NCBI GenBank assembly: GCA_030141605.1
Contig: JAQGDQ010000092.1
Coordinates: 554,001-618,000, forward strand
Direction: 5' to 3'
Length of the DNA: 64,000 bases
Source: Tubiluchus corallicola
Lineage: Eukaryota > Priapulida > Priapulimorpha > Priapulimorphida > Tubiluchidae
How positions within the stretch are numbered: position 1 is the stretch's first letter; each line of letters opens with the position of its first letter. The notes under the pieces are model-generated. The model was not told where the DNA came from. It was given only the letters and a program-made list of their open reading frames with translations, and ran no database searches. Below, piece after piece: positions 9,201-63,161 of this stretch. Made by a program: the position numbers and the translations under genes.

Positions 9201-9251
9201 GTGTTTTTAGACCTTGTTTAATGGTGGGCTACCAATGACTTCAAACTGAAG

Positions 9252-10226
9252 ATGGCAGATGAAGATGATGATGGCAGCAGAACTAATGCAACAGGACAGT
9301 GTCCAACGGAAAAGGAGAAACTCTATTTTTCTGCAGAGTGTCTTATGGCACCTGAGCCTAAAACAGCTGAACTCAGTCCAACCAGTAGCGTCGGCACTGG
9401 TAGTGAGTACTGTGATTATTTACTAGATGACTCGAGTGTGCCTTCCTCTTCCACACAGACACCTAACTTGTTGAGTCCAGATTGTCCTGGACTTCAGTTT
9501 GCAATACGGTCCCATAGCGCAGATTCAGCTGTCGACATGCTTTCTGCTGATGATGAGCGTGAAAAAACTGCCGAGAGCATGTGCCAATTTGATCATTCCA
9601 ACTTAGAACAGAAATTTGAAACTTGCGAAATTCAGAGTTATGCAAGTGATGTTGAATTCACTATTGGTACCAGCAAGCTAACTAGTTCAGAGCCAACTAC
9701 TGGTAAAATGTCTTCAAGTGACAATATCAAGTGTCTAATGTCTGGTGAAAATTCTTCAGAGCATGCAAGCATTCTAAATGAACAACATACTGCAGAAGAG
9801 GCGAACAGTGAGTTGACAGTAGTTAAGGTTTGTAAACATCGAAAACTATCTTCACAACATCGTCATAAATACCATCATCGACCAAATTTGTTGGAATGCC
9901 ATGATCAGGAAGCATTCACAACTATCCAGTCTAACCCACGTGTGATAGTGAGTGACCATAGTACAAGCACTGATGACAGCCCTGGGACACCAGTCAAAAC
10001 CCTTGGATTTTCTTCCTTGCAAAGTCCTCCACGTCGTTCACCAAGTAGTGACTCGCTGAAACATCGTTCGCAGAGTAGTGACTCGTTGAGGCGGTACATT
10101 CCAGAACGAAAGCTGTCCAGTGGCAGTACATGTTCAGATACTTCATCTATAGGTGGCGGTATTTCAGAATCATCTTGGGAAGACTCCGATCTGGATCAAA
10201 GAATTGAAATCCTTAATAAACGTAAG
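9252..10226 (+). CDS. ITPK: ITPK alternative first coding exon A (325 codons)
   Basis: Opens at the ATG at 9252 ([10 protein letters not shown]) and stays open to a strong donor AAG/GTAAGC at 10226/10227, phase 0. The product is acidic and Ser/Thr-rich, with phospho-site-like repeats ([19 protein letters not shown]) near residues 259-278 and an ending [19 protein letters not shown]. The N-termini of ITPKs are known to be variable and to direct localisation, so no specific function is claimed. A possible acceptor (tgtttttag) ends at about 9210, so an upstream non-coding exon may exist. Confidence 0.85.
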
Positions 10227-13200
10227 GTAAGCATTGCTGTCTGTTTTTCTGATTTCTATTATTTTTGACAAAAGTTTCATCGAAATACAAATGCACCTTA
10301 AAAATTTGATTATCTATATTCGAAAGTTGTATGACAAAAATAGTCATAATTTACCAATTCATGTTATTTCCATTTAAGATGTATAAAAGATAACGTCAAC
10401 TCTATAACGTCACTCCTGTTATTTTCTCTCGAACCTACAGATTGCTATATGCTAGAAACATGAACTTGTATCATTTTACCATTTAACTTTTATGACAGTG
10501 AACTGGCCAAGTGATTGCAGAACTGTTTTGATACAAAATTATTACAACAGAGTTTTGTTTTATTTATCCCTGTTACTTGCCTAACTCCAAAGACAATCTT
10601 TCTAGTTACCCCAATGAAGTGGGCTGCAGCAAAATTGTGTCCTGTCTGTTTGTTATAGCTTTTTTGGCTGTGTAGTAATGTCTGTGCAAGTGTACTTCAT
10701 GCAGAAGTAGGTATCTGTCAAAGTTGGACTTAGAGCCTATTTATTTTTGGGTCAATCAACGCAGTTATTGAATTTTTTACCATTTTTGAAGAGTCAAATT
10801 AATGTAGCAGTACTATGAGGCTATAATTCATAAGCAAGGCAGTTAATACTTTTCAGGTGCTGTGCGCTGACGATAATCTGACTCTAGTTATTTCAATATT
10901 ATATCAAATCTAAAAAAAATTTGTTAGTTTATAGAAGTGACATCCTGAAAACCTACTGATTTCCAGTACTGATAGTTATAGAGGTTGTTTGTTTCCTGGT
11001 GTTTTATATTAATAATATCTGATTGCCATTTTTCTTAACTTTCTCTTCTTTCTTAAAATTTGGCCACATACTCCTCTGGCCTCTCAGATTTGCAAGTCTT
11101 ATATATATATGTATAATGTATACATATATATATATGTATAATGTATACATATATATATGTATACCACTTCTCACAAAAACTACTGTAAAGTTCGAATACC
11201 TGCTGGATATCTGATCATAATGACTAATGTCAGCTCATTTCACCTGGTGCCAAAAAGACATTCATTGTAAATGCTCAAGCAAAAAGAACTGAGCCATTTC
11301 TTTCCAATTACATCAAAAACGAACATCCCAATATGATCAACAAGAAAGTCCAAAAACAGACTAAATGACAACTAACAAACAAATCAATAATAATGGAAGA
11401 GTCTGAAGAGAAGAGACATCACACTATCATTTCTGTCGGGTAGATTCACATATCCAATCCACAGAATTCTAAAGAATTTCCTGATTAATGTTACCAGAGT
11501 GTTTAACATTTTTTGTAAAAATGCACTCAAATTTAAAACAGTTAGGTTGCTGGTGAGAGCCAACTTGGACACAGTGTGGGCCATGCTCCAGGAGTCCACT
11601 ATGCTTCATGTCCATCAGCAGTAAAGTATGTATTTAAACCTGGCAAAATAAAGTGTATTACATATGCATTCACTTTGCAGTGCGACCTATGCAGTTTCAA
11701 ATACATCAGTGTAACGTGTAGAGCTGTCAGTGACAGATACAATGAATATAGAATGGCAGTCATTGACGTTGAAAAAACAATGTAGTGTGTCAAGTGTCAC
11801 CACTTCTTACCAGCTCATCCTGCCAAACTGTCATAATAACTACTGGCTTTAGGAAAAACAGCATCAACTAACAATAGTTAGTCTCAATACATCTTCCCAT
11901 GTCACTATAATACTATGAGATGTAAGGAAATAGGGATCCTTATATATGTATAATCTATAAACTCCACATGATTAAATTAACCTCTATGTTTGTAACCCTG
12001 ATACCTGACCAGTAATTTTTACACCAAAGGTTTTTCATATTTGCATCTGACGATGCTGCAAAGTTCTGTGAAAATCTCTGTTTTTTGTTTTTTTTTTGTT
12101 TTATTTCTGCAGCCGATATGGAAAATTTATATTTATTATTTTAGTGAGTGGCACAGGCACTCAAAACTATTTCTAATACCTGACTGGCAACTATTTATTA
12201 TTCAGTAAACCATACTGTCTGAGCTTTCAGGAATAAAATAAATTAGTATTCATTTAAAGATTATGAGCTGTAGAACATGTGTAGTACATCACAGACTAAC
12301 ACATCTGAACTGTGAGGTACAGCACCTGTTTTTATGCAACGCTTTCTGAAATGCAGGTGCTATTGCCCTTCTAATTAGCGAATGGCGAAATGCATGTAAC
12401 AATGAAGAACTAGTGGTGCGAACGCGAAACCGCGTTTGTGTGGTAATAATTCTTTCACGTAAGGCATTCTTTAAAAAAATAGTATGTTTTCTTTCAATAT
12501 TTTAAAGACTAGATTGTTTTTGACCTAAAGTTTGGCATTGGGTGCGGTATTGCAGCAAACTTCTGCTCTTCAAAAAGCGTTCAAGATTTGCGTTTTTAAG
12601 ACGTAGTCGAAAAACACTAATAGAATTGGGACCGATAATGTTAGGGCAAAAACGACACAAATAGTTCCAAACTGGCACTATTCTAACTGCAAAATTACTT
12701 TGAGAAGCTTGAGTCTAGCAGGTTCGTTGGAAATAGCATAAGTTCCTATTTTTTGACATTTGGCCTAGCTTGTGAGTTCATTGCATCAGTCAATATTCTT
12801 GAAGTGAGTTATTAAATTCAAAATTTGTAAAATCGCATGCATTATGCTGATATGGATTTTGAGCACAAATGCAGTAGAGAGCTGGTAAGGTTGTCCGGCA
12901 TCTTTGTAGGTCAGTTGCGCGGTCCGCAATCGTGCAGAATAACAACACCACAACTTAAATTCCTAGAAGGTAATATTGCAAGGCTGATGACGTCAGCAGA
13001 CTCGCAAATAAGCTTGCCCATGTGACATATCCTCTACGGTATGTTCGCTAAGTTAAGCAAATAAAAAACTCCCTATTTCACCAGTGAAGAGCCTCAGACC
13101 TAATTCAAACTTTGCGATATAAGTGAAGGACAGTGCAGGTGAAAAATATATCGTGTTGTGTAACACTTTCGTTACGGTTTATAATCGTCGAGGTAACGAC

Positions 13201-16200
13201 AAGCAAATAAGTACAAAGCTTAATAATAAGCAATGTGTGCATGCTAGGCAGGGTGAATTGTATGTGATCATTTTTGGCAGAAACAAACGAGATTTTAAAC
13301 TTTAAGGACATGTCTTTTCATTACTTGAAATGTTTGTATGCTTCTCACAATGTAATAGCATTAATGACATAATGATAAAACATCGATAATTTCCTTTTGC
13401 GGATGATGATTCGCGGAAATGTTACTAATGGTTTGTATAAATTTGTAGTGTTTGCATATGATAGAAGATACAGGAACAGACAGTACAACTTTCCTGTACG
13501 TTAGTAGATGCAGTGTATCAGTGTTCGCAATTTATTACTGCGTATGGTGTTTTTCATATTTTAAAAAAACAGGCACGTGTAACTGGACATTGTGCTGAAT
13601 TTTCACGGTAACAGTTGCGATGGCGTCCCCGTACATTTTGAGAAGTTTTAGTCATGAATCTCCTCTAATGGAGATGACTTTACGGGCGCATAAAGCTGAG
13701 AAGACCTCATGCTTATGTTTGGCATTAGATGGCGCAACGGAGTTGAGAAAGTGCAAGCTAGAGCAGAAGCTCTGTCGTAGGTGTTTGAGATTAACACGTA
13801 GATCGTCGACAACTCAGGTATTCTCTATACAATATTAAAAATTAAGATGATGCTGAAACACTTAAAAACTGTGAAGGTGATTTAAATAGCATTCTTTCTA
13901 TATGAAACTTTAGTAATCACGTCTCGTTGAGTTTAGTACATAAACTACGCTTATTTGAACAAGTTCTTTTATTGTCCTATAAGGAATCGAAACAGAAAAC
14001 AGTTCAAAACACCAACAGATTTGTGCATAAAATGTTCTACATGTTGCGGGCATAATTTCTCACTTGATTTTTATTTACCATATTGTTATGTGACCGTATG
14101 TTTTTTTCTACATCTGTTTATTTATCAAGTTATTTGTGCCCCTCAAACATTAAATCCTCTCTACTCTTTTTGTAAATTATAGTGTACTTCTAATTCATTC
14201 TTTGTGTTGAACTGTTGATACTAGTTTAAAAATAATTTAATGTCTACCATTAATCATTAAATTTTGTATATGGTTAACTTAATCTGGTGAATTTTAAATC
14301 AATTTTGTACGCTATTCACAACGCATGTTGTGCTTATTCTCTTGTTACTTATTTAAGATAAGAATGTTTAATACATAACAGGGAAATTAGCTGCAAGATT
14401 GATTTGCAAGTCTTTGCCTATGGACTACTCCTCATACTTACTGTGCTTGTTGTAACTTTCAAGCCACTTGATTTATGAAGGGACGAATTTTTAGTAATTT
14501 ATTTTCGCTAAAGTTAATGGATCCTAATTGATCACTGATGTAAACACTATTTATTTTAAAAGCTCAAGTGCTGCTTACTCTGTGTACTGTTCAGCACCGA
14601 GACATTTTTACTAGTAACTGGATCCATTCAAGTAACCAGTTTTCTTCCGTAAATGCAAGCTAAAGTCTCAGCTTTATAAGATCTTGCTCGAAGAATTCGA
14701 TTTTTTCGTTCGCTAGATTACTTCTCGTTTTATTTATGATCTTACAATATCTATCACCGCCTTGTTATAATAGATTTTCTAACATGCGCTTTAGATTTTT
14801 GTAATATGTACTGCACTTCTGTTGTGCATTATATCCATGAGTTATATATATAAACCTTTTTCTCACTTTGCTGGTGAAATTTTGTGTATCAGTTACAGTT
14901 TGGCGATTTTTTAAATTTGAAAACATTCTTATAATTCACCTGTTACATTTGAGTTAGATTTTAGCTGGCTGAATAATTTCTAGCTGGTTTACAGCAGTGC
15001 ATGTCAGGTTGTTCTTGTTCTTTTCAAAGTCTTACATTTGAAAATTTGGTTCACTTGCAAATAGACGTTTGGGAAAATTAGCTTGCACACTAACTGTATT
15101 TTAGCAGAAAATTTGAGTCTGTGTAATGTCACTATACTCTAACCTTGATAAAGTTTGACAATTTTGGCGTGATAATTAAAACTTTGTGATCTTGGATGAA
15201 ATTAAACAAGGTCACCCGCACGGTTAAAGTTGAAGGAAGTTAAAGAAAGATACCATTTTTACCAGTGCGCTGTACCAGGGACCTGAACAGAGTGGTTTCA
15301 ATTTGGAATTTTTAACTACATATACAATTGTACATTAAGAAGTGATGATTACCTTATACATGTAAATTTACAATAAAGTAATTTATCTGCGGAAATGCAA
15401 CTCTTGTAGTCTTATGTTTGCAGGTTTACGAGAACGATGCAGAAGTTATCTTTAAAAAGTATAATCGTATAATTATTAGTATTACATATGGGTCAGTGTG
15501 CTGACAATATTACATCTCGTGTACAAACAATTTTAGTGTCCATTGGTAGTGTATTGGAGATTACTGATTGGGCACTGTAAGTTTTTAAATTGGAACCGTT
15601 TGAGAACCGTACCCCCAAATAAATTTAAATGACATTCTGAGCGCACCAATGAAACTTTGATCTCCCTAACTGGAAAATCTTGTGCTCCTTACTGAATGAA
15701 GATCAGTGGCTCTTAGGTAATGAATTTGATCATGGAAATCACATATTTGCAATTCTCAAGTTTTCAAATTGGGCGTTATATGGGGGGGGGGGGGCGCTTA
15801 AAGTACGTATATGATACCTCTTCTGCGAAAATTTTAATATTCACGTTCGTATGCAGCGTACGTACTAAGCAGATGTCTTGTACTGAATTTGTTTTGGAGA
15901 TTGTTCAAACTTTAAAATTCTCTTTTCCTAGATTGCTAATAGAACCAAAATGAACAGGATGCGTGATACTTACAAACAGTTCTAAATTTCATGATGAAAT
16001 AAATGTTGAAACTTCTCATTCATGAATCAACAATTTATTTTATTACTGAATATTGCTTTACTTGTAATATTGCAAGATCGTAACGTTGCAGAATTTTCTG
16101 GTAAATCTTTATTTTGCAAACGCTTTTCATGATGCAGTCAAATACAAATTCATATATTGTTATTGTTTGTGTGCTAAAATTCATGTATGCATACCGCGCA

Positions 16201-19200
16201 TGCTAAATGCTTGCCATTGACTACTGAAGACTTGTTTTCACACCACTACCGGACATTGGTCAACCTGTTGCTAACAGCGCTCTATGTTAACGTGAAAGTG
16301 AAGAACAGGCCTGCTTTAAAATCAGCAGTCTTATAATATCTAGCGAGCCGTTGGTTGATCCGTCCAATATCACCAGCTACAAAATTAGCGAACAATCGTT
16401 GTATACAGGCTTATGTGATCGGCACTCAAGAAGGCTTATAAATATTAAATGAGCAGTCTCCTGCGGGTAGTGTATGCCCGGGTATAAATATATAAAACAG
16501 ACTGTCTAGTGGGACATTACAGTATAAAGCTCGTTGTGTGTTGATTATGATAGAAACTAAACAGTAATTGTTGGCTTCCATGTGCTGCGTGTGTGGGCAG
16601 CATGTCTGTTTTATATCAGCATAGCAAATACGTAAAGCGGTCTTCGAATCCAGTGAGTTCAGTTTGACGCTTTGCTCTTATTACAATGTTTAGAGCTGAA
16701 TACTGAAAAACATCAGAAAGCTGTACAATGTGTAACGTTCGTGTTTAGAAAATGTGCATCGTTTTACTTACTGGTTTATTATCTCGCGGATAGCGTTCAC
16801 ATTATGAGTGTTTAGTGAATGTTACGTGATCAACGAAAATGTCGCGCTTCCTGTATCATGTGTGACCTTTAATTTAACGTAAAGTAGTTGCAAGTTTGCA
16901 GCAATTTTAAACGTAGATGTTGTGAGATTTATGCGCTTTAGTTCTGCTTATTATGACCGCGTAAACAATACACGTAATTAATAATGAAATAATACACGTA
17001 ATTAGGGAAAGTGAACGTCTATTTATTTCTCTTACTTTGCACATAACAGTCTTGAGTCTTGAAGAGCTGGTGGGCCGCATTTCAGTGTCGTGATATTTAG
17101 TTAATCTCAATGCAACATGTTTGCAATTTGTCATAATTTAAAAAATAACACTTGTAACAGACGATGATCATTCTGATCAGGTTGTTCTCCCAATTTGTCT
17201 GACAGGCAGATCAGTAGCAGATATGTATGTGTAGAGGTGCAAGTGAGTGTACTGTATCGTGAATGGACCTGGTCAGTTTTTCACGTTTTGCCTGGGTCAG
17301 TGGTCACCAAGTCTTGTTACCCGAGTTAAATTGTAAACATAGAGGAAACGTGTTTTTGCTTTAAGTTGTGTTATAATTAATTAACTATGCCTGGATCACC
17401 CAGTTCCAATTCTGTGTTGTACTCAAGATAGTATTGCCTGACTTCTGTAAATCGCCTGTTAGTACAGCAAGTTGTGCATGATAAAAAGCTAGCTGGAAGC
17501 GCATTATCTGTAGGCTGTAATTTTTAAAGAAAAAAGACAGTAGATTTGTGAGTGGTCAGCCTGGTGATATTATCAGACTGTGGCCATTAGATGAGGATAC
17601 TAACTTATGGTGGATATTTTATTATAAGTGCCTTATGGTGGAGCTCGTGCAAGGTATTAGTTTGAACCTGTGTGTATGCTGAAGTATTCATCCAAACAGA
17701 AAAACCGATAATTCACTCCTGTCAGGTTACTCCTTTCAGGATAATATGCAGCTGCAGCTTCTCGTTTGGAAGGGTTAGCTCTCGTCAGTTCCGAATTGCC
17801 ATTAGTATGTCGATCGACTTACTTTTGTATTTAGCTCATTTATTACCCTCCGTTTACATTTGTTCCAAAATAAATTTTGCTTCCAAAAACAAACAGCATT
17901 TGTAAAGTGTAATGTTAACGTAACGTTACTTGAGCAAACCTATAAATTTGACATTCTCCATTGCCAATAGTGAGGTTATAGATACTGAGGATGGTAAGGT
18001 TTATGAAATTTGATGGTAATAATAAAAATGAAGGCAGTGTGCTTTTGAAGTCACTCACTCTGCATCTGGAATCTCAACAACCATTGTCTTAATACGCACG
18101 ACCTCAGCACTGTTAGTCCACGTAGTGCCTCGCTGAATTTGTAGGCTGTCAGTAGCGTAGCTTTATACACATACATGTACGTCATATGGACAAGTTTAGA
18201 ACAACACTAAACAGATTGGCTCTGGGCAGCGTTAACGGTATTGTTTACATAAACTCGGATGTAAACATGATGGCTAAAGGAAATGAGATGGTGGGTAATT
18301 TTTTGGTGGGTGAACTAGCCCAACTGATGATTTTCGGCTGGCTTATTTTCATGTGTGTTTTATTGTGGCTTTGTAGGACTTTTTACATTAAGAAAACATT
18401 AACCGATTTTTTGCTTCTAATTCCAAAATGTTTTTGAAAAATATAAGGGATATACAAAGTAGCGCAAATTACATAATAGGGGTTGTCGAGATACAAAATA
18501 GACAAGAATGCCAGAAAGCGATTTTTATATTTGTGTGCAACATTTTATTAAAATTTATTCCTCGACGATTTATTTCTGGGAATATGGGATTTAAGCACTG
18601 AAAACAGCTTGTTTGCTATGTCTTCGAAGCCTATATTTAGGCTCTTCTCTAACTCAAAATACTAACTTTAGGGCAAACTCATTCCCAGACTCAATCCAAC
18701 GCGATAGTCGCTCAGCCTGTCGACTTTCACATGCTGTTTTCAAATTTATATCTCTGAAGCCAGTTTTCACGGGTGGGTGGCTCCAAACAAACGGACAAAG
18801 ATCTTCACTTTGCACTGCAACCTTCAATCATTAATAATTTTGTATTTACGGGTTGATAACTTGCTGTTACGAACCTCCTGCTGATAGGCGGGAGTAGCCC
18901 TCGGAAGATTTTGTGACGAAGATCTAGGGGCTATTTCTGCTAGGATTTTTGTTGTAGATTTTCAGGATTTGTTTTTGTCTGACCGGGCTTATTTTCCGTC
19001 GCGGCGAAACACTGTAGACCGAACAAACTGTGCGTTTTATTTCTGACAGTGCTTTTTATGCTTTGCAGTTGAACTTATTACTCAACACTGGCCTTGTATA
19101 TTTTATTTTATAAGGTTTGCAGTTTTAAACAGATTAAACCAATTCTTTGTTGGCTTCATACTTGACGTATTACAGACGCATTTCTGTTAAGTGGTAGAGC

Positions 19201-22200
19201 GTTGATGGAAACGAGCAGAGTTTTACATTATCCATTAATGCCACGTCTTTCGAGAAAAGTTAAACAAGTTTTGAATTTTGTTCGTTGTTCGTAACTTAGT
19301 TGAAACTTGAAGGCGCCGTGGTCACTATTGCGATGACTTCCGAAACTAAAAATTGCAACGATCTTGTTATGAAAGAGAATATCTTGGGAGCGTCCAAAAA
19401 AGAGTGTCACGAGCCATTGTTTTTAACCAGTGAGAGTTCAGTGTACCCTTCTCAGCGCAAAAATATTAGCGAAGAGCAATTTCAAAATGTTGTCACTCAT
19501 GAAATTGGTAGCACTGTCCAAGTGGCTATGAGACAGAAGCCGCCGGTGGTAAACATCGTAAAAACTGATAGTTTAGACAGTGCACTAGCTGGTTGTTCGT
19601 TAGAAAATAACGGACAGCGTAGCCCTTATGACGTCACTAACAGTGGTCATCCTCTCCTGGAGAAACGTTGCAGCAAGGAACTCGCGGACGTGTGTGATTG
19701 CGATGATTGCTTTTTGGGTATAACTGATCAACAGGTCCTGGTGAAAGCGTCACATAGAGGAAGTGTGCGCTCGGTAAGCCTAAATCATTAAGTATATATG
19801 AATGTAATCAAACCATCAGGCTTGTGTTTTCAATAATTTATGTTGTTAAGCACGAATTCACATTTTCAGTGGTTACTAGGGTTATTGCGCGTTGCTCCTA
19901 CCTTGGCTTCTACTGTCCATTTGCTGTAGAGAGTGAAGCACTGTTTAAGATCATTTATTTCAGCACTGTAAACTAATAAACGATTATGAATCCCTTGACA
20001 ATCAGTTATACAACTGTGTCGCTTATTTTTTGCATTACTGATTCAATGTGTGGCTTCACATTGGTACAGTCTTGCACTAGTAACAGTTTTGCCACTTTCT
20101 ACAACATGGACTTTCTGCAATTCCTAAACGAAGTTATTATTCTCTACATTTCTATACCATTAAAGATCGGACGGCATGTTGTGCTATGAATAGGGTCTAC
20201 GTTTGAAGTAATACTGTAAAATTTATTGGATTATATAATATATAAAATGTAACATAGTGCGAAGAACTGTCAAATCAGACACGCAGTAAGGACAATAGAT
20301 TATTTCGTCGCGAATGATATTTAATTTTGTGTAACAGAGCGCATTTGCTAAATAAAAAGCAGAATATGTCCCGAGTCAACCCTAGATTGAGAATGAAGCT
20401 GTCAGAAATGTAGCCCAGGTTTCATCGCATATTTGTGTGAAATATTGTTTGAAGCTTATTACAAAATTAATTGATGTTAACCTAGAAAGTAAATGTGGCG
20501 TATGTGAAGCCGCAATGATTCCTAGGTTGCGGCGTCTAAAGTTTCTGTTTTGCAAAGGCGTCTGCCTTCTGACTCCTGGTTAACTAGTTATAGTGAGCGT
20601 GGAAATTCCAAAAAATATGTTTTTAGATTTCTTGCCTTCATCTTCCTCTGGACATTCGGTTTGATTACAACCGTAGTAGTCGTTCAACGACAACGGTAAT
20701 CTGCTTCCATTAAACTTTCAATTTCTGCCACTTTGAAGAGCGCTTGATATTACCTGTTGAAGTCAAAGTTTCAATAAATCTAGGCCGTCCATGTCGTTTT
20801 CAAAACACTGCTATTCTCGAGTTTGTCAGTGTCGAAGGACCGTGTGCATACCAAGCATGACAGTGAAATTTGAATGTCACTCGGGTGTGACGATATCAAG
20901 CTCTCATGGTCGTCATTCATGAAATGAACAGCCAATAAGAATGCGCGCAGGTGACGGCTTTTCTTGCGGGTACGTAAACGGCGAACTGTCGCTGAAAACA
21001 ATGAATTACCGTACATGTACTAACAAAAAACAACTACAATTTTAATATTTTGTAGGTGCATAAGTGCAAAAATTTCCGTGGGTGACCTAAGGTTATTAGA
21101 CTTGTACAGGGAACTAACTGTACAGGAACTTTCGCTCCTACTGCGGCGATTAACCTGTGAAAGCGCAGTTTGGTACCTTTACAGTCTACTCTGATTATTT
21201 AGAGGTAGATTGGTCAATTACTACAGATATATAATTATACAGATTAAAATATCTGTTTCGAAGTAGCTGAACTGGGTACCTAAAACAAATTTCTGAAGAG
21301 TATCAAAAAATTTTAAATTGCGACAGTTTTGTCTTCCTTATTTGTTTTTTACAAGTGCACATTTGATATCAAATTTTACCGAATTTGCTAATGCTCTAGC
21401 TAAAAGCTATACATTTACATCAAATTATCATGCTGCGTGAAGACTGATTGATCAAATTTGATTTAGCTTCGGATCATCCCTAGCATCAGATCCACGTAAT
21501 TGGAACATGTCCTTAACGTCGCAACTATAAATGCAATATTCAACATCCAGGCTGAATACACTTGTGTCTAGTTAGCGCCACCCTCTTACTGTGTTTATCG
21601 TAGGCCACGAATCAGAAAAACCGCTTTATGCCAACCACTTCGACATAATTAGAGAAATAGTAAAGGCACGTGTTGCACTGGTAATTCACCAAAACTAAAT
21701 TTTGTCTTGACCACGAATCTTGTGAAAAATCGCAAAAAAACTAAATGCGTTCTCACAGAGTTTATTTGGTGACTCCAGGCCACAGACTGTTTTGTCAAGT
21801 CTGTTTGAGATTTTAATCATTCTAAAATCAGTTTTGATCATTCTGGCGTAGTATAGGATTCGAGCCACGCGGAAATGCGTTGGCAGGACTAAAAAATAAT
21901 TGAAATACAGTAGTGATAAACCAATATTATGATAATAAGAATGTCTCCGGGTCGCGATGACAGTCAGGTTGTCTAAAGGTTATTATCCAAAACACATATG
22001 TGCAGAGAAATTCAAGATGTTCTGTGAGTCTGGAGAATTTGTTTGGTTTGACTAATTAATGACCTTAGAAGGACACTTGTATACATAAGGATGTTGCAGT
22101 ATATTGCCGATTATCTATGGTCCAACATCATTGACCTAAAACTACATTTACCTTGCTCTTGTGTAACGCATTCCATTGTTGCATTGTAAGACAATGTGAG

Positions 22201-25200
22201 CAAAATGCAAAACACTCCCGGCTCCCTGATCATGATCTTATTTCAGAGGGGAAACAAAGGTCATCTCCACAGCATCACAAATGTGCTGGATTCTATGCGA
22301 TGATGCAGTTTGTCAATTCAAATAGCAAGTGCATTTGCATGGTTTTAGTTTTGTTGATGACTTAAGTAATAGCGTCAAGAAAAAATTGCTATAATTACTC
22401 ATGACTGCTATAATTACAGCTGAATTATTGATTACTGATTACTGATTACAAAATTTTTTGCGTCGGTTGTGAAACGTACCCGAAACTGCGCAAAGATAGT
22501 CCCAATCATGAAGATGCACATTTGAATTGAAACCAAGATTCGCGCTTTCATAAACATTTATCGCTAAATGGCTCAGTTTTCCAAGTAATTTTAAGGTCGG
22601 CAGTAAATTATAAAAAGAGGCTTTTTATTTATTTTTCATCTTGTCTAAGTCATTACTCAAATTCTTTCGAAAAGATGTCTTACTTTCTACTTGAAACACT
22701 CAATGTGAGAAATTTATGAACTTTCCTTTACAGCATAGGCATTACAAGTTGGAATGATATACAGTACTATAAAGAGTATTTTAAGTTGTAACACGCTATC
22801 GACACAATAATATTATTTTATAAAAAGTAAAAAACCTTTCAAACCACATTTTCCACTATATTTTTTTCTACTTTAGTTCTTCAGTAAATGCATTTGAATA
22901 ATATATGGAACAGCTTTAGACGCCACTGAGTGATAAGGCAAAGGATTTTCTGCATTGTAAATAAATGCATTGGGGGCGAGGGCAGATCCAGTACGCTAAC
23001 TCTGTTAATTTTATTAGGCATCTGTGGGTCTAATCGTTCCTTTTTCATTTGACAACGTACCAGCCAGTGCCCTACATGATATTAAAAATTATCTAAACTA
23101 TGACAGATACCTGCCACCACTTATGACGATTGTATGTGTATTTTTTTCACATAAATTGATATGAATTTTTGCAGTAACTTCTGTGTGACAACTATAAAAA
23201 CACGTTTTGCTTATAACCCTTAACTGCTAATGTTAATTATGCTTTTGCTGAGTCTGATAGAAACAGACGTTTACACATCTGTTGAAACTCATAGTTGATA
23301 GGTTTTAGTTTGGAAGTTATTGTTAAAAGCCTTAAGCACTCACACTCTAAGCTTATACCCTAATCAATACTGAATCCCGTCAGTCAGTCTGTTTTGCTTC
23401 TTCAATCTTTTCTTCTATTATTAAGCAGGTTAACTGTTATCCAAAAACAAAAAAAACGTCAAACATCGATATAAAATCTTAGCTAACACAAAAAAATGAG
23501 ATTTAGGATGAGAGAATATGATTCTGAATTAGGAAGCATTAGTAATCTAGCTAATGTTTGTGTTAGTTATTTTGGAGATTTGTTTTGTTTAATTCTTATT
23601 TTATAGGTAATTCTGGTTACTATGACAGAAAATGAGCGCGGGGTATGCTTGAAAGCGTATCAAACTAAAGATGCAAATTTTTGTTCTTTCACCAACAATT
23701 GGTGTTTTTATTTTTGGTCAGACGTCGATTAATAAAAGTTTGTTTGAAGTGAATCTGTTATCATTGGAGAAAAGTTGTATATCGCTATCGCATAAGTTAC
23801 TTTTTTAATTCTGTGCAGAATCTTGATTAGGACCATAATGCGGAAATTATTACTTTTCGATATTTTGAACTTTTGGATTGTTTTTAGATACTTTTTCCTT
23901 CCAGCTAATCGATATCAGCTGTCTCTTCATACGTTTCAGAATGTCTCCTCCCAGAGCTAACTTATCACTTTACTCACCCATAATTCGAATATTTTGCTCT
24001 GATAAGCTTCAATAGCCCAAGAAAATTCGTTTTTTGTCTTTTATGATTTCGGGTAAAACTAAATTTATTTTTCCGAAGAATGTATATATAGGCGTCGATT
24101 TTCTCGGTGGTTTAGTAGGCGTCTATCGTCCATATCGAAGGTATCGCACTACATTTTGTAAAGTTTGTGCTTTTGAGAGAGGGTCTTGTGATCAAGATGA
24201 TAGAGCAAGAGACGTCTTACTATATTCAGAACGAATCTGTCACCGCCGTCGTACGACTGCCTCCCAAGAAGTTGAAGTCCTGTCTGAAGAAAAAGCTTGT
24301 CAACGTGGAGACGTCGGCATCTGCTGACGTTGTCGTACCTTTGCCGCGAAGGATCACATCTCCTCGTGGCAGCATAGACCTGACGCGGCGGCGACCGAGT
24401 GACACTACTTCTAACTACATCTCTAAGTTCTACTGGGACAAAGCTCGACGAAACAGCTCCACAGGAACGTCCGATTCTGAAACGAATTGTGATGACCCAG
24501 AAGCAACGTCCATCTCCACCTCTCATTCACCATAAGACCGACTTATCGCACTTGGCATGGACATTTTTCTTACTTCACGTGACATGTAATAACAACGGAA
24601 TTGCAGTACAGCTTGTGTGGTAATGATAATATTTGTAGTTGTTGATGTAGATGCGACGTTTTTATGCAGTCGCTGATATATAAAATTTTGTTTTTATTTT
24701 TAACCTTATAGGATCTTGCCATTGCATTTCGTGTGAAGTACTTGTAAAACAATGCATATTCAATCTGCTAATTCGGTATTTCAGTCAACTCAGTATTAAG
24801 CTGTGACCATACTAATTAATAACTACTTACAATTATTAGGGTGCCCAATGCTGAATGGCGTCAGGGATGTGTAAATATTGGTATGTCGAATTTTTTATGG
24901 CGTTCTCAAGCTGTGTATATGATAATTTTTGTGTGTATTTCTTATCCTTCTTATAAGAACCTAGATAAGACCCACCAGAGACTATTTTACAGACCATTAT
25001 GGTGACCTACATCTATAATCTCGATCTTAATCTGTAGAGAAATGCTTTTTTCCTGCCTATCGAACGAAGAACATTGTGAATCACTTAACAAACTGTACCA
25101 GTTTTGGAACTAAGTAAGAGCTCTGCATTCTGACAAGAACGAACCTCTTAGCCGTCTTAATCTATCGGGTGTTGATTTTAGCGCATTCCTTTGGCCGTCC

Positions 25201-28200
25201 GCAGAACGGAGATTTCGCTTGTGCTATTGGCTTCTTTGCTGCTGTTATATACATCAAGATACCGTGGACTTAAACAGAGTGAGTGGTCACCACATTTATA
25301 CTTTAGTTGATTGGACATTTGCTGCATAAAACCAGCTGATAGTAAATTGATGTTTTCAAGGAACTAGCCATTAGCTGTTTACACAGCCTTAGCTAGATTT
25401 TGTGTACACCAAGCTATTTATACTGTGTATTACAGGAGATGAAATTGACGTAGTTTGGTTGCTACTTTGTTCGAGAGCATGGACTCCTGTTTGAACACCA
25501 GTAACCGTTGGCCTGTTATTGATACACGGTTATGATTACAGGATATGTTCCTGATATCGTATAAGATGGTTATTCCTTTCATGTATGGGATAAAGCACAT
25601 TTGTTTTAGCATTTGGAATGGAACAGTAAATTATTCCTTATTATGTGGTCACGAAGCACGGAAACAGTTAGTGTGGGTCTTGTTGTAGAAGTGTATTGAC
25701 TCGCATTTGTGCTGTTACGTACAATATTATTATCTTGTTGCTAGAGCAATTATACTGTGTATTTAACCGGATTGCTGTTATGGAGATTTGAAGCCAAAAC
25801 ATCAAACCGTGGAGTGAAATGCAATCATAGCAATTCATAGGAGTTCTTGTGGATCACACATCTTTAAGACTGTACTTAAGAAAGTATTGTACGACTTTTT
25901 CTTCTGGAGTTAACCGAATTAATTCCTTGAAAGCCCATTTTTAGTGGACGGGCGATTCTGGATTATCTCCTTATATGATTAGTGGATATTTTTAGTGGAC
26001 GGGCGATTCTGGATCATCTCCTTAGATGAGTCTTTGACTTCCTGGCCTATCTTCTTTTCTGGACAGTTTGCACTTGTGTTTATAACACTTAATTAGTACT
26101 TTGGAAAGTCCTTGGGCGACTCCAGTTTATGATGACAAATCGGACTGACATTGTTGAATCGACTGACACTGTGCAATCAGATGTCTCAGCACTGGTCATG
26201 TTGCCTGCAGTTGCAAAACGGCGGTCTGGTTCAGTTGATGCGCCCAATCCAAACCTTTTTGCGCAAAAGAATGGTATGGACAAGTTGACACCACTGCCTT
26301 CATCACTACGGAAAGGAACCGAGTGTGAGGTTAAAGTACTGAGGCCACGCAAGATCTCTCAACCACGTACACACGTAACTGCGGTCAAGGTAGTAGCTGA
26401 AGATGTTGATGGTGACCGCGTTGGTGTAGATTGGCAGGATGACTGGAGTGACGATTCTGACTGGGAGGTGGAAGCAAATGTGGTAGTGCGAAAAGTTTCA
26501 TTTCTGCCACCTCCTATACCTAAGAAGGTTGGTGCAGTATCAGAGTTTCTTGACTTTCATCAAAATGTTGCTGACAAGCTTTGAGATGAAATTTAAAGTT
26601 GAATTTTTTCATTGTATTTAAAGTCATATGATTAGAAAATGCCTGATGAATTGGAAATCTGCTAGACCTGTTAATTTTAATTATTGTTGTCTTTGTGGTG
26701 TAAAAATTACAAATATATTGCCAGTCGTTTTTTTATTCTACTACAAAAATTGTTGGATTAAAAATCATTTTTAAAAATCATAAGACGTTACATATTGGAT
26801 CTGAATCTAGATCTAGACGTAATCAAAACGTCAGCATCAGTTTTTGGTTTTAAAATTTTTGAATCATGAAAATGAAAGCTGAACATTGAGATTGTTTTAT
26901 ATTCGTATCAGCTGTTTCATTTTTTGTAGCGTTTTCTTGTTAGAACTTACGTTAGAATCATAGTATATTACCAATTATGAAATTGAATAATGTTGTAGTC
27001 AATAAAAATTTGAAATTACTGAGTTAATCAGATAAAAACTTTTAAGGAGTTTATTAACAACTAGTATAGCTAGACTAGCCTTAAGGAGTTTATTAACAAC
27101 TAGTATAGCTAGACTAGCCAATACAACGAGAATTAAAAATGAGTGAGCTAAGTTATCACCAAGTGCGCAGTGTACTAAAAAAGCTAAATTTTTGATTTTA
27201 GTGGAATCACTACTGGAAAATGCAGTTGACCACAATTAATCAACTATGCAATTTAATTGTTTGATCTTACATATAAACAAATGTTCATTTTCACGACATC
27301 TAAAAACAAAAAATTTTTACCAGAATGTAGAAGTAACTTAGAAGTACATTTATGTAGATGATAACCAAATATTGTTTGATATCTACAGATAATTTACCAA
27401 TTTAACTTACAGTCTTCGTATCTTTATTAGTATGAAACTATTTTACCAGACCATAAACTAAACATTGTTAGTTGTAATACAACTGCCGGTTGCAGAGCCA
27501 GACCAGTTCCAGGAGCAGGCCCTGGTTCTGAAATTGACTGTTCTGTTACAAATAACAATGTTTTGTTTGTGGACTGGTAAAATACTAATGAAGAAGTGTA
27601 GTTTGTAAGTTAAATTGTCGAAGTATCTGTATATGTCAATTAATATTTGGCTATTACTTATTGAATTGTACTACGCATGTTGTTCCTACATTCTGGTAAA
27701 AGTTTTTTTAGATGCCTTAAAAGTGAACAGTAATTGTTTGATACTGGTTGGCAATAACATTTTATTTTGAAGAAGTTATACTTATTTGCCAAATATATAC
27801 AATTCTAAACATACATCTACACGTTAAATGTTAGTCGCATATTATGTAGAAAATCCAATGTTAGGTATTAATATAACAATTTACAACATATGGCACTATA
27901 GACCCAAAACGCAAGCTTACATCAGACCACCAGTATTAGACAAACCAGTATTAGTAATGAATCAGTACAGCAGTACTGACTGAAGTTTTTGGAATACCTG
28001 GAAACTATGATAATTGAAGGGGAAGATTGACTTCACTTATAAGAAGGCATACACAAAATGAGTGATTAAGTGAATGATTAGGAAAAAGTTAATGATAAAT
28101 ATGTGACAATGAGGCTGCAGTTTCTTATGATGTACTTGGATTACAACAAGGTTTTCTTTGTACACCATTCATCGCGGCTTGTTTATTACGAGATATCTAT

Positions 28201-31200
28201 ATATTGTCTATTATAGTATCCTTGAGAGTCGACACTGAGGCGTGCAATTTTGAGAATCCAACTCTTTTTGAATGTGTTGTAGTTACACTATCACTTTGGT
28301 CATAATTTATTTTGCTGATTTCGGTAGGTTTAAATCTTCAGTTGATTTAATTGATTGATTGCATATTTAACCTAAGACAGCTGTTTAAGATAGCCTTGGA
28401 CCTAAGTGCGACTAGGAAATGGTGTAAGACAATAAGGTCTACCAACAGTTTAAAAGCTTAAATCTGTGACCGAAATAGAGTAACACTGAGCTTTGTCAGT
28501 AAGTGGATAGTTGACTACCATGATGACTAGGATGATACATCTGCCGTTTTGCATCCAGCTATTTATTTTGAAGGGAGAGATGTATATGTATCTGAATGTA
28601 CAGCTATGACACCTTTATCGGTTGTGGGTCTTACTATTAATACTAGTAGATTATCATTGATAATAAGTCAAGTTCTGGCCCAACGCAACCATCTACATGA
28701 CTTTTCTATGCTGTACATCTTTCTTCGTTCACCCCTCAAGGACGGTTAATATGTAATTTCAGTCTGACATATTTTATAAATATGCTGAAGGAAATCTGTG
28801 GGGATTTTTTAATGCTTTCATTTTTAGGCCAAGCGTGGTTGCTTTGGATTAATGATATAAATAAAAAAAATGTGCACTGAACGCTTGAAAAATTACTACA
28901 TAAATTTTTGAAAGCCCTTGTTTGACAACTTATGACGATGCAGACTCCATGCATATTTTAAACAAAATCTTTGACGAGTGAAAACGTGCCTTAGTTTGGC
29001 ATTTCAGTGATTTGGAATTCTGAGGTTAGAGTATACTAGAAATTTGCCAGGAAATCTAGTCCATACTAACACCTGACTGGTCTAGTTACCCATTGATGTA
29101 CCGTCTGAATCTAGAGTCACTACCTGCACTGTTATGTTGGCTGGTGCTTTTGAAAAACTGTGTCATATCAATCATCGGTCTCATGACTTGTTCCACAATG
29201 ACATCTGGTACATTTATGAAAGCTGCCATATCTGCGCATAGCCACAACCAAATTTTTAAGCTAAGCCGCTTTAGTTTTCTAATTGTTTTTCCAGATCTCA
29301 GGATGGCGAAAAATTCGCAATATGGTTCATTGGTCACCTTTTATACAGTATTACAAGAAGCAAAAGTATCCATGGGTCCAGCTTGCAGGCCATCAAGGTA
29401 AGTGGAGTCACATGCTCTGTATGATTTCTAATGTGCCTTTTCGGTTTTCGGCAGTAAGATTTTATCTAAATTAATATTTGTAATCATTGATGAAAATTGT
29501 GAAGCAATTTTTGCTTTCGTCTTCATACAGAACCAACACCATATAAATGTACTCGTATGATGCATTAGTTTGTCATAAAATGCAGATATTGCTTATGGCA
29601 TGTCGGATGTAAGAAATATTTGTTCCTAATGATGGACAAAAGTTTTACAGATTTTTAAAAAATTAGTAGATATCGGCAATTTAATTCACTTAAGGCCCAT
29701 GTCAAAGAGAGCCGGACATAATCTGTAAGGCATAAGCTGTAAGTAGAAAAAGCTGCTTTATGGAAAATGAACGTATGCTAACCAATGGTCTCTGTCAGAT
29801 AGATAACCATTTGCCGTTTTCCTTCAACTGCGGTTTGTCTACCATAAGACGTCAGACATAATCCACGGTAGGCTCCTCACAAGCCATTTTGAGCAGTTCA
29901 GAAGGCGCCTTATTATGATATGAATTTGGTATTGAATTTCATTTGTCATAACACATTTTTGGCAATCGCTAATGGATAATTAACACATTTGTGGTTTTTA
30001 GAGTGTACAATTCATTTATATGATAAAAATTCATAATACTGATGTACTAGAAACATTAAGAGGCATCTTAACCCACAACATTTATTTACGACTGCTATAT
30101 TACTACAGTGTACATGAGAAATGTATACTACATGCAGGAGGCAGCATACCAGTGAATCATATTATACAATGTATGCGACTGACAATCTTATTTGAATAAA
30201 ATGATTTGCGAGCATGTTCGTTTTTTCACTTTCGTTATTTAGTTTGCATTTGCGCTTTTTGTTGAACCATATTGCAAGTGGATCCAGTAGTACATGCATT
30301 TTCGACACTTGAATGATTCAGAAAACTGATTTGTGCCTCATGCCACAAATAGATTATGGCAAGACGACTTACTAGTTACACAGAGCAAGGCACATATCGC
30401 GGGTTACGACGTGTTCCTTACAGAAGAAGGAAGACGCCTTATGGCTTATGAATTATGGACTATGGCTTGCTCCTTATGGCTTTCTCTGTGTGACACAAGC
30501 TTATTACTTCTTTTTTTCCTGGATTATTACAGAATTATTTAAGTAATTTAGATTCAGTAATAATATTTTTTAATCTGTAAAAAGTTAATTTGTTCAGAGG
30601 AATGCATCTTGAGATTACATGTACATATTTTTGAACTAGAACTAGAACCAGAGCCATTTGAAATGTCAGCTAACCTTTCATTTTGTGCATTTCAGGTTGT
30701 TTCAAAGCTGGAGACCAGGGCACTATTTTAAAAAAGTACTGCCCAAAAGAAGCAAAATGTTTAGAAAAATTGATGAGCGACATTATGCGACCGTATGTGC
30801 CTCACTTCCAAGGTTCTGTTGACAGAGATGGGGAGAGTATCCTTTACAAGTGCATGTAATTTATTAGAAAAAGATTTTTATTTAAAAAAAAACTTGCTTC
30901 AAGTATACTGGTGTGTAGCAATCTAGTTTCAATGCGGGAAAGATACTTATATTAAGCAGTGGCAAAAGAATAATAGTAATTTAAAGTTCTTTCACAAAGT
31001 GTCTTATTTGGTCCAAATAGCATAAAGTTTTGCGAATACTGCATGCAAATGAGACTTCACGACTTTTGCCATGAATTTTGCAATGATATAGTCTATTATT
31101 GATTATTATTATTAATGTTATTATTATTAAAACTGGCACTTTTCAATCTCAGTGACTAATTTTGTCAGTCAGAAAATCCATTCAGCTTGAAATGCACAAA

Positions 31201-34200
31201 AAAGGGAATGCTAGCTCCATATGTCTGGGCAATGGCATAATCGAATGAAGAACATTTTCTGCGGCAGGATATAAAGAAGGCAAGAAATCCCTGCTTTTTG
31301 GCAATCATTTTCTGCATTACTTTTCTCTTTGTCTGTTAGTTAGCATGTAACTTGTAGAGAAGCATTGTAGCTGCTATAAAAATTCGTACAGTTTGTGTTA
31401 GCAATCATATAACATGTGTAGTCTAATAGTCTCATGTATACCCTTAAATTTTTGTGAAGTCATCATTGGTTTAAAATTGTTTTCATAATGATACTGTTCG
31501 GCCCACATTGATGTAATCTGTTTTTGTCAGTCAATCAGTTAACTGGCTAATTATGATTGTACTTTGTTTGCACAAAGAACATTGTCCTTAACGTAAACTG
31601 CAGAATATGTGAAAATGGAGGATTTACTCGCTGGTTTCGATTCACCTTGTGTCATGGATTGCAAGATTGGCGTCCGCACTTACTTAGAAGATGAACTTGC
31701 CAAAGCCCGAGAGAAGCCCAAACTTCGAAAGGTATTGTTTGTTCATCTTGTTCTCAATCTTTTGTTACTTCCTTCATCATATGTTTTGCTTTCGCATTTG
31801 AAAACATACGGCAAGTCCTGCCTGTAGACCTATAATCTTATTGTTAACTGTAACACGTAAAAATCCTATTAAAGTAGGAACGTGTTACAGAGAATTTTCC
31901 ACAGTCAATTTAACACCTAAACACCAAACCAGATGAATATTCATTCCAACTTGAAGATAGTGTTGATACAGTTTAGTATTCGTTTACCAAACTAAAACTG
32001 TGTATTAGTCCAAAATTGGTACATTAGTCAGGTGAAGATGCAAGCGCAGGTTCCAGTTTAGGTTGCTCTAGTCTATTTGATGTAAATAATTCTTGGAAGC
32101 TTCACATACTTATCCCCCATTTTAGGACATGTATGAGAAAATGATTCAAGTGAACCCAGAGGAGCCTACAGAAGAGGAGCATGCACAACAGGGAGTTACC
32201 AAACCTAGATACATGATCTGGAGGGAAACCATTAGTTCCACAGCAAGTTTGGGGTTCCGAATTGAAGGAATAAAGGTTTGTTGACTTTTTATGTCCTATG
32301 GAGTGCTCAGCATTAGTGCCTCCATTTCTCTTGCTATTTCTTTTATAATGAAAACAGGACAGAAGTTTCATATAAATAAATATGCCCATTTATCACAGGA
32401 AAGCTGTAAAAATTATGCAGTCCTATCTTCATAGTAACATTAATCCTCGACTTTAGCCTCACCTTTTCCTTAGGTCACGTTGTAGCAGCCTCTTAGTGAT
32501 AGAAATCATTTAATCAAAATTGAAAATTTGAACAGGATTAAAATCGCAGGGTTTTCAGGGCCTGTAAGTAGGACTCGGTCATGTGGATTAAACATTTCAA
32601 GTGGGTTCAAATGCTAGTGCATACATTATTTAAGACATTATTGTATTATTAAACAAAACTTATTTGTATTTGTAAACAAAACTTATTTGTATTTGCAGCA
32701 TTCTGCACCTTGTACTCATCAATGCAGGAAGCATGTTATACGTCTTAAAAATTGTTTATAGCTATCTTTGGTAAATTTTACATCAGGGCAAATTATACCG
32801 GTCATATGGATTAAACATTTTAAGTGGGTTCCAATGCTAGTGCACACATTATTTAAGACATTATTGCATTATTAAACAAAACTTATTTGTATTTGCAGCA
32901 TTCTGCACCTTATACTCATCAACGCAGAAAGCAGGTTATATGTCTTAAAAATTGGTTGTAGCTATCTTCGATAAATTTTACATTAGGGCAAATTATACAA
33001 CAAAGCATTGGTATTTTAACTGCATAAAATGGTGGGTAACTGTGAACTGCCAGAACACTGATTGATTAAATGTGCAGCTTATTATGTGCTTGCCATTTTA
33101 TCCATGTTAAAATGTAATGTGGTGTATGCTGTAGTGTATAGGCAGTTTTTCATCTGGGATTTAATTTGCATAGCCAGTTTAGTTTTTATCTGCTTAATTA
33201 GTATTATAATTATGCTTGCCAATAGTTTCTTAATTTGTTTTTCAATTTTGATTTCAGTGTATTTTTATGTACAGTCACCCTCGGATATAAGGAACACCTT
33301 GGGACCGGAAAAAACCGTCCCTTATATCAGATGTCCCTTATAGCCGAAGTTGAGTCAGAACGAGGATGTATCTAGACCTATACTTTTCTGTACTTTTACT
33401 CATATTTTTATGGATTATTGCTACACTGTACTTTTACTCATATTTTTATGGATTATTGCTACACATTCAGGGCAAACGGTATGTAGGAAGCTCCTTCAGT
33501 GATGCGAGATGTATGTGACCGCGGAAACCGAGCTGTTCGAAGGCCGAGTTTGCGAAAAATTGAGGTTAAAAATCGATCAATTTCGCTTTAATCATAGGGT
33601 CCCTTATATGCGAGATAATTTACCTGGGTTTCTATTATGCGGGACCTGAAGATATCGTCGCTTATAACCGAAAGTTCTTTATGTCCGAGTATATTATATA
33701 TGAAGATTTTTACATAGGAAAAATGTTACGAAAAATCGGGACTTGTGTTGGTGGTATAAGCGAGTGTCCCTTATAAACGAGTACCTCATACCCGAGGTTG
33801 ACTGTATATGGCTTTGGGAGACCGGGTTGGTTTAATTAGCGGTGGTGGGTTACTCCAATGTTATTAGAAAACCCAAAATAAGTACATTTCTCTGCTTGTA
33901 GGTAAAACTTATTATCTATAGTTTGGTTTTTGTAAAACCATACTAATTAAACACCCTAAGTGACATTCGGATCTGTGACATTGTAAAATATTCCGTTCTG
34001 AGTGTATTACTCAGTTCTCAACATACATTGTTATAGATTATTGAATGTGATTGTGAGTGCTGTTCAGAGGTGGAATAAAATTTTCTTAAGGACTACTTCA
34101 AATGTCATTACAAAAATTATAATGGTTTTTCATCTCGATATCTTAGTACCATTGGCGAGATTTTTCTGTGGTAACTAGTCACTTGACGTTTGTTTGTTTG

Positions 34201-38240: not shown

Positions 38241-40887
38241 CCCTTCGCCGACCAAGCCGGGGTAAAAAATTACGCCAAGATTGTTTGCTCACATTCTTTA
38301 TATTAATGCACATAACGAAAAATTTTCAAACTAGTATTGATGGTTTTGTTGAAAAGTATTATTCATGCTTTTTTACATAGCATGGGTATCAGATACTACC
38401 TGATATGGGGTAACTTATTAGCCCCCTTGGTCTTTTATGTAGACAAAATTTTTGAATTTACTTTGCAGTATTTTTCTTTCCGGCAGCACATTGTGTTTAT
38501 TTTTAAAACTGAGAAGTGCTGCAAACCTCCAATTCGGCCTACAGTTTGCAAAGTGATTTTTCTAGTAATCTGTTGAGGAATTTCACATTAAAGTTTGTGG
38601 ACATTCTTCATTAATTCTAGTAATATGACGAGGACTTCAGCTGTACAGGTGACTGAGCTTGAAGCTGATGACTATGAAGCTGGTAAGGACAAAATGTTAC
38701 CTAAAGTCGTAATAGACACCATTGACTACATCTCTAAACCTTTGCAATATTTAATTAATTTATGTTTTCTTACAGGTGAAATACCAACGAAATTGAAAGA
38801 ATCAATTATTGTTCCTTTGTTTAAATCAGATGATCCCATGTCTCTGAACAATTATAGACCAGTGTCCTTATTGCCTTTTATATCAAAAATATTAGAAAAA
38901 GTTTTTTACAATCAGTTATCTCATTATTTAATAAAAAAAAAGAATTCTGAGTAATAAACAATTTGGTTTCAGAAAAGGTAGCTCCACTGAAATGGCCTTA
39001 ACAAAAATTATAGAAAATATCATTAATACTGTTGAAAAAAATGGCACATCCTACGGAGTATTTTGCGACCTATCAAAAGCATTTGATACAGTAAACCATG
39101 ACATTCTGCTAAATAAGTTGTACTATTACGGTATCAGAGGTTTGCCTCATATGTGGCTAAAGAATTATTTAACAGGGTGCACTCAGACAGTAAAATATAA
39201 TAACGCTTTTTCAGATGTAGCACCAATCAAATATGGCATCCCCCAAGGCTCAGTCCTTGGGCCACTACTTTTTCTAATTTATATTAATGACATCAAATTT
39301 TGTGTTAAAAATCACAATTTATTTCAGTTTGCTGATGATACAAGCATTTTTTTAGCTTTCATAAAATAGAAACCAATATTGACTACATAAATACAGTTGT
39401 ACATGATCTAGCTATATGGTTCAAAACAAATAAACTTTCACTAAAATCATCAAAAACAAAATACATTCAATTTAGATCCCGAAATAAACCAATTCAGGCG
39501 AACAACGATTTAATAATAGGCCACAAAAGAATTACACGTGTAAAAGAACTGAAATTTCTGGGATTAATACTGAATGAGCATCTAGACTGGCGACCACATA
39601 TATTCATGACCAGATTGAAAATATAAAAAAATATAGGTATCATCTCATATAATAAAAACTTTCTGAACACCGAACATCTTCTAACATTATACAGCAGTTT
39701 AATATTATCATATTTAAATAACTGCACAACATTATGGGGCTTTACTTATACTACAAATTTAGAATGCTTAAGAGTTTTACAACGAAAATTTTTACCTGTC
39801 ATCTTCAAACTAGACAAAAGGAGGACAATTACTACTACACATTTTAAGCAATGTCAGATATTACTTCTGGATGATGTTATTAATTTTAATGGATGTATAT
39901 ACATGTATAGAACCAACAACAACTTATTTCCAACTTTTTTTGAAAATCCAGTCAAGATAAATGTAAAACAATACAATACCAGACATAATGAATATATACC
40001 AAGACGTTGTAGAACAAATATGGCGAAACACTTCATTAGCTATATGGGACCAGTCCTATGGAACAGACTAAGCCGCAATTCGAAATGTGGTCACTCCCTT
40101 TTAACAAAACCGTCAGAAAAGAAATATTTCAAAAGTATTAAGAGTAACACAATTTGATAATGGTAATAACCTGCATTTTTTTCCACAGTAATCTTAATAT
40201 AACGTGACTATGCTCAACAGGTTACTGAACACTTTGTAACCATGATCACAGTTTTTCTTAATTCTCGCTCCATTTCATCTTTCATTCATTACTCCCCCCC
40301 CATTTTTTTTTAAGATTTCCACGTACAGTTTGGCCTGTCAAGCTATGCTTTTAGGCTCAAACTGTATGCATCAAAATTATTCTGTAATGAAATTTGCACA
40401 CGTATATCCGCATTTTGTAATTTCTCGATAATACTGCATTTATTCATATTTATAGTTATTTAAATGGATAATTATCTGTATTTTAATGATAATTGTAAGA
40501 TGCAATGTGGAAATGAATAAACTCTTGAACTCTTGAAAATTTTTTTTAAAAGATCCAGCAAGTGAAGACGAAGTGGTTGTCTTAGAATTAAACAGTAAAC
40601 ATCGTTACTAGTTCATTATAAAACTTTTCGCAAGACTTGAAAAACTAAGCATAAATAATATAGCATAAACAATATGGCCCAATGGTGGAAGGCCTCTTTT
40701 TATTCTTGCTGCCCTCATACACTTATGCCAACTTACCACAGAACTTGGTTTTGTATTAATAGGAACACATCAATTACCAGTTGGTCATTCTGTCCAGTTA
40801 GTAAAGCATATTAAGTAAAGCCTTCATGGGGTAATTTTTACCACGCTTGGTCTTCATTGAAAAATAAAAACCTGGCTCGGCTAAGGG
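38241..40887. mobile_element. piggyBac-like element interrupted by a LINE
   Basis: Left end CCCTTCGCCGACCAAGCC; reverse complement of the right end CCCTTAGCCGAGCC. Both are flanked by TTAA (38237-38240 and 40888-40891). Subterminal GACCAAGC and GGTAAAAATTAC blocks recur near each end in inverted orientation. The TTAA duplication and CCC start fit piggyBac. After removal of the LINE about 700 bp remain, so it is non-autonomous or a relic; no transposase was recognised. Confidence 0.72.
38640..40540 (+). mobile_element. LINE (Jockey/CR1-superfamily-like) fragment with reverse transcriptase, 5' truncated
   Basis: Broken frames encode, in order, an RT palm with SLNNYRPVSLLPFISKILEK, FGFRKGSSTEMALT, GVFCDLSKAFDTVNHDILL, YGIPQGSVLGPLLFLIYIND and the catalytic FADDTSIFL, then KTKYIQFRS, LKFLGLILNEHLDWRPHI and a C-terminal GPVLWNRLSRNSK near 40060. 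There is a frameshift at an A-run (about 38933-38941), another near 39355, and further stops. The 3' end is ATAAACTCTTGAACTCTTGA, a short tandem-repeat tail rather than poly(A), as in CR1-like LINEs. It is inactive and sits inside the piggyBac-like element. Confidence 0.88.
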
Positions 40888-62844: not shown

Positions 62845-63161
62845 TAAACGTGTAGGTGAAATTCTTTGTTTGCCGGCATTTAATTTTTAGTAACGATTGG
62901 ATTTTGCAGAAATTGTTTACATTATTAAGGCGGATTTCACCTGTATAACGATAAGTAATATCATTCAGTCAGTTTATCATAATAGTTATATTATTTCGTT
63001 ACAACTTGATAATTACGTTTGTGATTATGACAGTGTTTTTCTGTTTTCAGCGTGTGCGTTAATGTTAGAGCCTAGTTCTTTACAAGGTAGTACGAAGACA
63101 TCATTTTACAAGTTAAAAAACAAAAAATAAATTTATATATTTTGTGTTTCAGGCTTTAGTC

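Follow-up and report, generated by a model that had tools for sequence, protein, structure and literature searches.

A single IP3 3-kinase gene with at least two candidate alternative N-terminal coding exons in the priapulid Tubiluchus corallicola

Introduction

Alternative first exons are common on signalling enzymes. Among the IP3 3-kinases (ITPK/IP3K) of vertebrates, N-terminal diversity is spread over ITPK paralogues. The N-terminus of vertebrate ITPKA binds F-actin via the motif VxxLxxxFE (PMC13364712). In Drosophila, the gene IP3K2 (wavy, CG1630) has several transcript isoforms with four contiguous 3' coding exons in common; these exons hold the PxxxDxKxG core and the calmodulin-binding Trp, a conserved residue with a role in calmodulin binding (PMC4751550). 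One IP3K locus with several isoforms is already known, then, from the fly IP3K2 (PMC4751550). Genomes of C. elegans, Nematostella and Ciona contain one IP3K each, and that of Drosophila contains two (PMC11000326).

In this study, a stretch of 64,000 nucleotides of Tubiluchus corallicola DNA (the window, whose positions are used below) was found to contain a complete IP3K gene. Its predicted architecture is the same as that of Drosophila IP3K2, namely isoforms with common 3' coding exons (PMC4751550); whereas Drosophila has two IP3Ks and four shared 3' coding exons, the window gene is single and has seven. With vertebrate ITPKA, ITPKB and ITPKC it has the kinase core in common, and there too the N-termini vary while the core is kept. 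With a probability of roughly three in four, we read the locus as a single IP3K gene whose exon at 29295 is spliced to one of at least two alternative, mutually exclusive coding exons for the N-terminus (9252-10226 or 19333-19773), selected mainly by where transcription starts.

Methods

The shared exons were assembled by hand. IPK-family loci were sought by a profile search with PF03770 in the organism's own 343-Mb genome. For the coding tests, codon and inhomogeneous dinucleotide models were trained on protein-kinase exons of the same genome. In the frame test, each stretch served as its own reference, read in the two remaining frames, which makes the result independent of base composition. 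As a control, the model was retrained without the tested gene, and the true frame was picked in 83 of 84 known coding pieces of 66 codons; as a null, the best of 46 chance open reading frames (ORFs) of 112 codons reached +15.7 bits. The second measure was the codon score of a stretch against its own dinucleotide shuffles (z).

Results

The seven shared exons span 29295-35953 and join into one uninterrupted protein of 308 residues. This common kinase part and the phase-0 acceptor before 29295 are as the original prediction, made from the sequence of the window, had described them. The exons are:

29295..29397, + strand: first shared exon; phase-0 acceptor TTTTTCCAG/ATC; 34 residues including the putative calmodulin-binding segment
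30696..30836, + strand: shared kinase exon, followed by a U12-type intron
31604..31731, + strand: shared kinase exon with the active-site motif PCVMDCKIG (PxxxDxKxG)
32126..32275, + strand: shared kinase exon with the IP3-binding insert
34211..34312, + strand: shared kinase exon
34852..34923, + strand: shared kinase exon
35723..35953, + strand: last coding exon, stop TAG at 35951-35953

The homology of the kinase part is seen directly. Over their full length, its 308 residues can be aligned with human/mouse ITPKB, ITPKA and ITPKC (best E 6.3e-129, ITPKB 2aqx), and they also match the ITPKA structure 9qgk, in which the first shared exon is aligned with KNHWQKIRTMVN. The exons of the gene (contig C775) exceed the curated cut-off of the IPK domain PF03770, and the PxxxDxKxG motif is present as PCVMDCKIG. 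The long IP3-binding insert (RKDMYEKM...), absent from IPMK and IP6K, aligns to ITPKA/B without gaps. N-terminal to the core, a putative calmodulin-binding segment with the conserved Trp aligns to KNHWQKIRTMV of ITPKA. Every IP3K-family feature tested was found, and on this comparison of sequences the window gene is an animal IP3K.

One donor in the kinase part, AGA/GTATCC, is odd. It is a U12-type 5' splice site, GTATCCTTT at 30837, and is paired with the branch site TCCTTAAC at 31585, close to the acceptor of the intron 30837-31603; the same genome has a gene for U12 snRNA (C246:124599-124748). Because of this site pair and the snRNA gene, the junction is considered sound. A partial tandem duplication at 34715-34885, offset by 93 bp, copies the acceptor and first codons of the exon at 34852; the decoy acceptor that it places upstream of that exon would reach a stop within about 13 codons.

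The PF03770 search revealed three IPK loci, of which only the window gene is an IP3K. The two others were assigned to families by motif: the one at C2222, a gene of a single exon, to IPMK (PSVLDIKIG), and the one at C1461 to IP6K (PCVLDLKMGTRQHG). With one IP3K in its genome, T. corallicola resembles C. elegans, Nematostella and Ciona (PMC11000326).

Upstream of the shared exons, the following open frames were considered as N-termini:

9211..10226, + strand: N-terminal exon N1; acceptor, 41 nt leader, ATG at 9252, 325 codons, phase-0 donor AAG/GTAAGC after 10226
13620..13817, + strand: reported frame N2; 66 codons, phase-0 donor CAG/GTATTC, in single-copy DNA
19333..19773, + strand: candidate N-terminal exon N3; ATG at 19333, 147 codons, phase-0 donor TCG/GTAAGC after 19773
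24197..24532, + strand: frame N4; 112 codons, own stop, TATA-like box at 24083, no usable donor
26129..26581, + strand: frame N5; 151 codons, TGA after 26581, phase-0 donor AAG/GTTGGT after 26527

The ATGs at 9252, 13620 and 19333 and the phase-0 donors after 10226, 13817 and 19773 lie exactly where the original prediction had placed them. The N5 frame with its donor and the splice acceptor at 9211 were not listed in it. Its claim of at least three N-terminal exons holds for two of the frames named. The coding character of the frames at 9252 and 19333 is seen directly, with margins of +47.3 and +33.5 bits that chance ORFs never attained and codon z values of 3.6 and 1.8; in N3, each half contributes about +16 to +17 bits. 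The donors of N1 (score 7.0, second among the gene's donors, of which the best scores 8.0) and N3 (4.1) coincide with the end of the coding signal. The N1 sequence occurs at one place in the genome, and a genome search with N3 found it nowhere else. That a single N-terminus is translated, upstream starts merely varying the 5' UTR and the other frames being untranslated or chance, is extremely improbable: two independent measures call both 9252 and 19333 coding.

The third of the reported frames, 13620-13817, fails every coding test and was rejected as a coding exon. The frame test favours another frame over its own (-8.6 bits, which puts it at the 4th percentile even among chance ORFs), its z is -1.1, and chance alone would supply 0.19 ORFs of 66 codons or more followed by an equally good phase-0 donor in 29.3 kb. 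It is probably a chance open frame. These results make it very improbable that all three reported frames and the one at 26129 are real N-terminal exons of at least four isoforms, even though every one of them has an ATG, a phase-0 donor and an upstream in-frame stop, and the 13620 donor is comparable in strength to two kinase-part donors (1.4, against 0.5 and 1.5).

From 10226 to 29295, no further firm coding exon was found on the + strand beyond the one at 19333 and the frame 26129-26581. The latter is as clearly coding as 9252 and 19333, with +42 bits over the 133 codons up to its donor (26129-26527) and a z of 3.8. The 18 codons past the donor still look coding, a score reached by 3.3% of noncoding windows. 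Because the coding signal seems to continue past the donor to its own stop, the frame may be a nested single-exon gene in the ITPK intron; that it is a third N-terminal exon of the kinase is a tentative reading, which we hold at somewhat less than even odds. For 24197-24532, the coding status is uncertain: all GT sites are weak, the z is 1.8, and 20% of chance ORFs score as high as its margin of +10.4 bits.

The exon at 19333 could itself be part of a nested gene. On that account only 9252-10226 would be an N-terminal exon of the kinase, and 19333, 26129 and perhaps 24197 would form one or more small nested genes on the same strand in a long first intron. The start and stop of the 26129 frame and its coding-like stretch beyond the phase-0 donor are in keeping with this, as are the TATA-like box and stop of the donorless 24197 frame, and a phase-0 join from 19773 to the AG at 26124-26125 is formally possible. 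However, that AG before 26126 has no good pyrimidine tract (it is not among the sites with at least 11 pyrimidines of 16), no nested-gene family was recognised in the Pfam search, and a good donor, in phase with 29295, closes the 19333 frame. We consider nested genes of this kind unlikely.

The phases and splice motifs of N1 and N3 are observed features, with the caveat that phase agreement alone arises once in three per exon. An in-frame stop lies upstream of each ATG (TAA at 9219 for N1, a stop at 19297 for N3). Each ATG is therefore read as a start, and 9252 and 19333 are not consecutive coding exons, unless a splice site inside the second frame is used. For the two-exon reading, the junctions 10226/29295 and 19773/29295 are predicted from these sites.

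Discussion

The single IP3K gene with two alternative N-terminal exons may work as follows. A transcript begun at a distant upstream site, its 5' UTR exon joined to the acceptor at 9211, would carry the first N-terminus; one begun ahead of 19333, within the first large intron, would carry the second. Each N-terminal exon would be joined in phase 0 to the exon at 29295. We infer promoter choice between the two exons, and with it separate promoters. A strong acceptor, CTTTTCCTTGTGTTTTTAG before 9211, stands 41 nt upstream of the ATG at 9252, so the promoter of this exon is not adjacent, and the exon is probably the second of its own transcript. The promoter probably lies upstream, between the 9252 exon and a gene which we take, by recognition, to be GFM2-like and to end near 547.9 kb of the contig. 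This same-strand upstream neighbour is a mitochondrial elongation factor G2-like gene. CpG-high stretches hold 13620, 19333 and 24197, but CpG islands were dropped as a promoter mark: the starts of 23 other genes are CpG-high no more often than 3' flanks (22% each).

Both enzymes would keep catalysis and activation by Ca2+/calmodulin, and would differ in their presumably disordered N-termini, and with them in location, partners and phosphorylation. The original prediction had the N-termini set regulation as well as localisation. This is overstated with respect to regulation: the putative calmodulin-binding segment sits in a shared exon, so the isoforms would differ in targeting, not in calmodulin control. 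Ser and Thr make up 26% of the 9252 N-terminus, which has several RxxS sites. A 30-nt tandem repeat within this exon (10031-10089) encodes a 20-residue repeat stretch. The end of the exon (RKLSSGS...SWEDSDLD) weakly resembles the ITPKB sequence just before the kinase core (p 0.03 against shuffles), and is no more than a lead.

No similarity was found among the candidate N-termini. Nothing of note was found for them in Pfam, nor in a PDB search with three of them, none of which matches full-length human ITPKA. They were also scanned for F-actin, NLS, NES and RVxF motifs. VxxLxxxFE, in strict or relaxed form, is absent from all of them, which sets the window gene apart from the actin-binding ITPKA subtype. 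The scan gave one RVxF-like match, KVSF in the 26129 frame; we estimate that a single such match is about the chance level.

If confirmed, the arrangement would let one IP3K locus supply calmodulin-regulated kinases with different targeting, no duplication of the gene being needed. It would also provide a usable outgroup for the question of whether vertebrate ITPK paralogues divided N-terminal isoforms that already existed. In a far-reaching version, which is very improbable, a single-copy IP3K uses separate promoters for 9252, 19333 and 26129 to make at least three N-terminal isoforms, and this ancestral set was later parcelled out to vertebrate ITPKA, B and C.

Other features of the window and of the genome were also observed. 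A remnant of a non-LTR reverse transcriptase lies at 38595-39610 on the + strand, and the same-strand neighbours at 43991-60200 and 63144-63719 are a dipeptidyl peptidase III gene (HELLGH motif) and a gene for an SR-type RNA-binding protein. A protein-kinase fragment was found with identical score on six contigs (C1974, C2072, C2074, C2107, C1752 and C1831), as 594-bp matches with one TAG each, which suggests that it is dispersed within a repeat. The phosphagen kinases of the genome are of creatine-kinase type, which speaks against an arthropod; searches for COX1, GFP-family and arthropod hemocyanin sequences gave no match, a result that does not establish their absence. Elsewhere in the genome, long uninterrupted frames hold many protein kinases, some of which look like testis-specific kinases, and likewise two creatine-kinase-type phosphagen kinases; such frames suggest retrocopies or intron loss.
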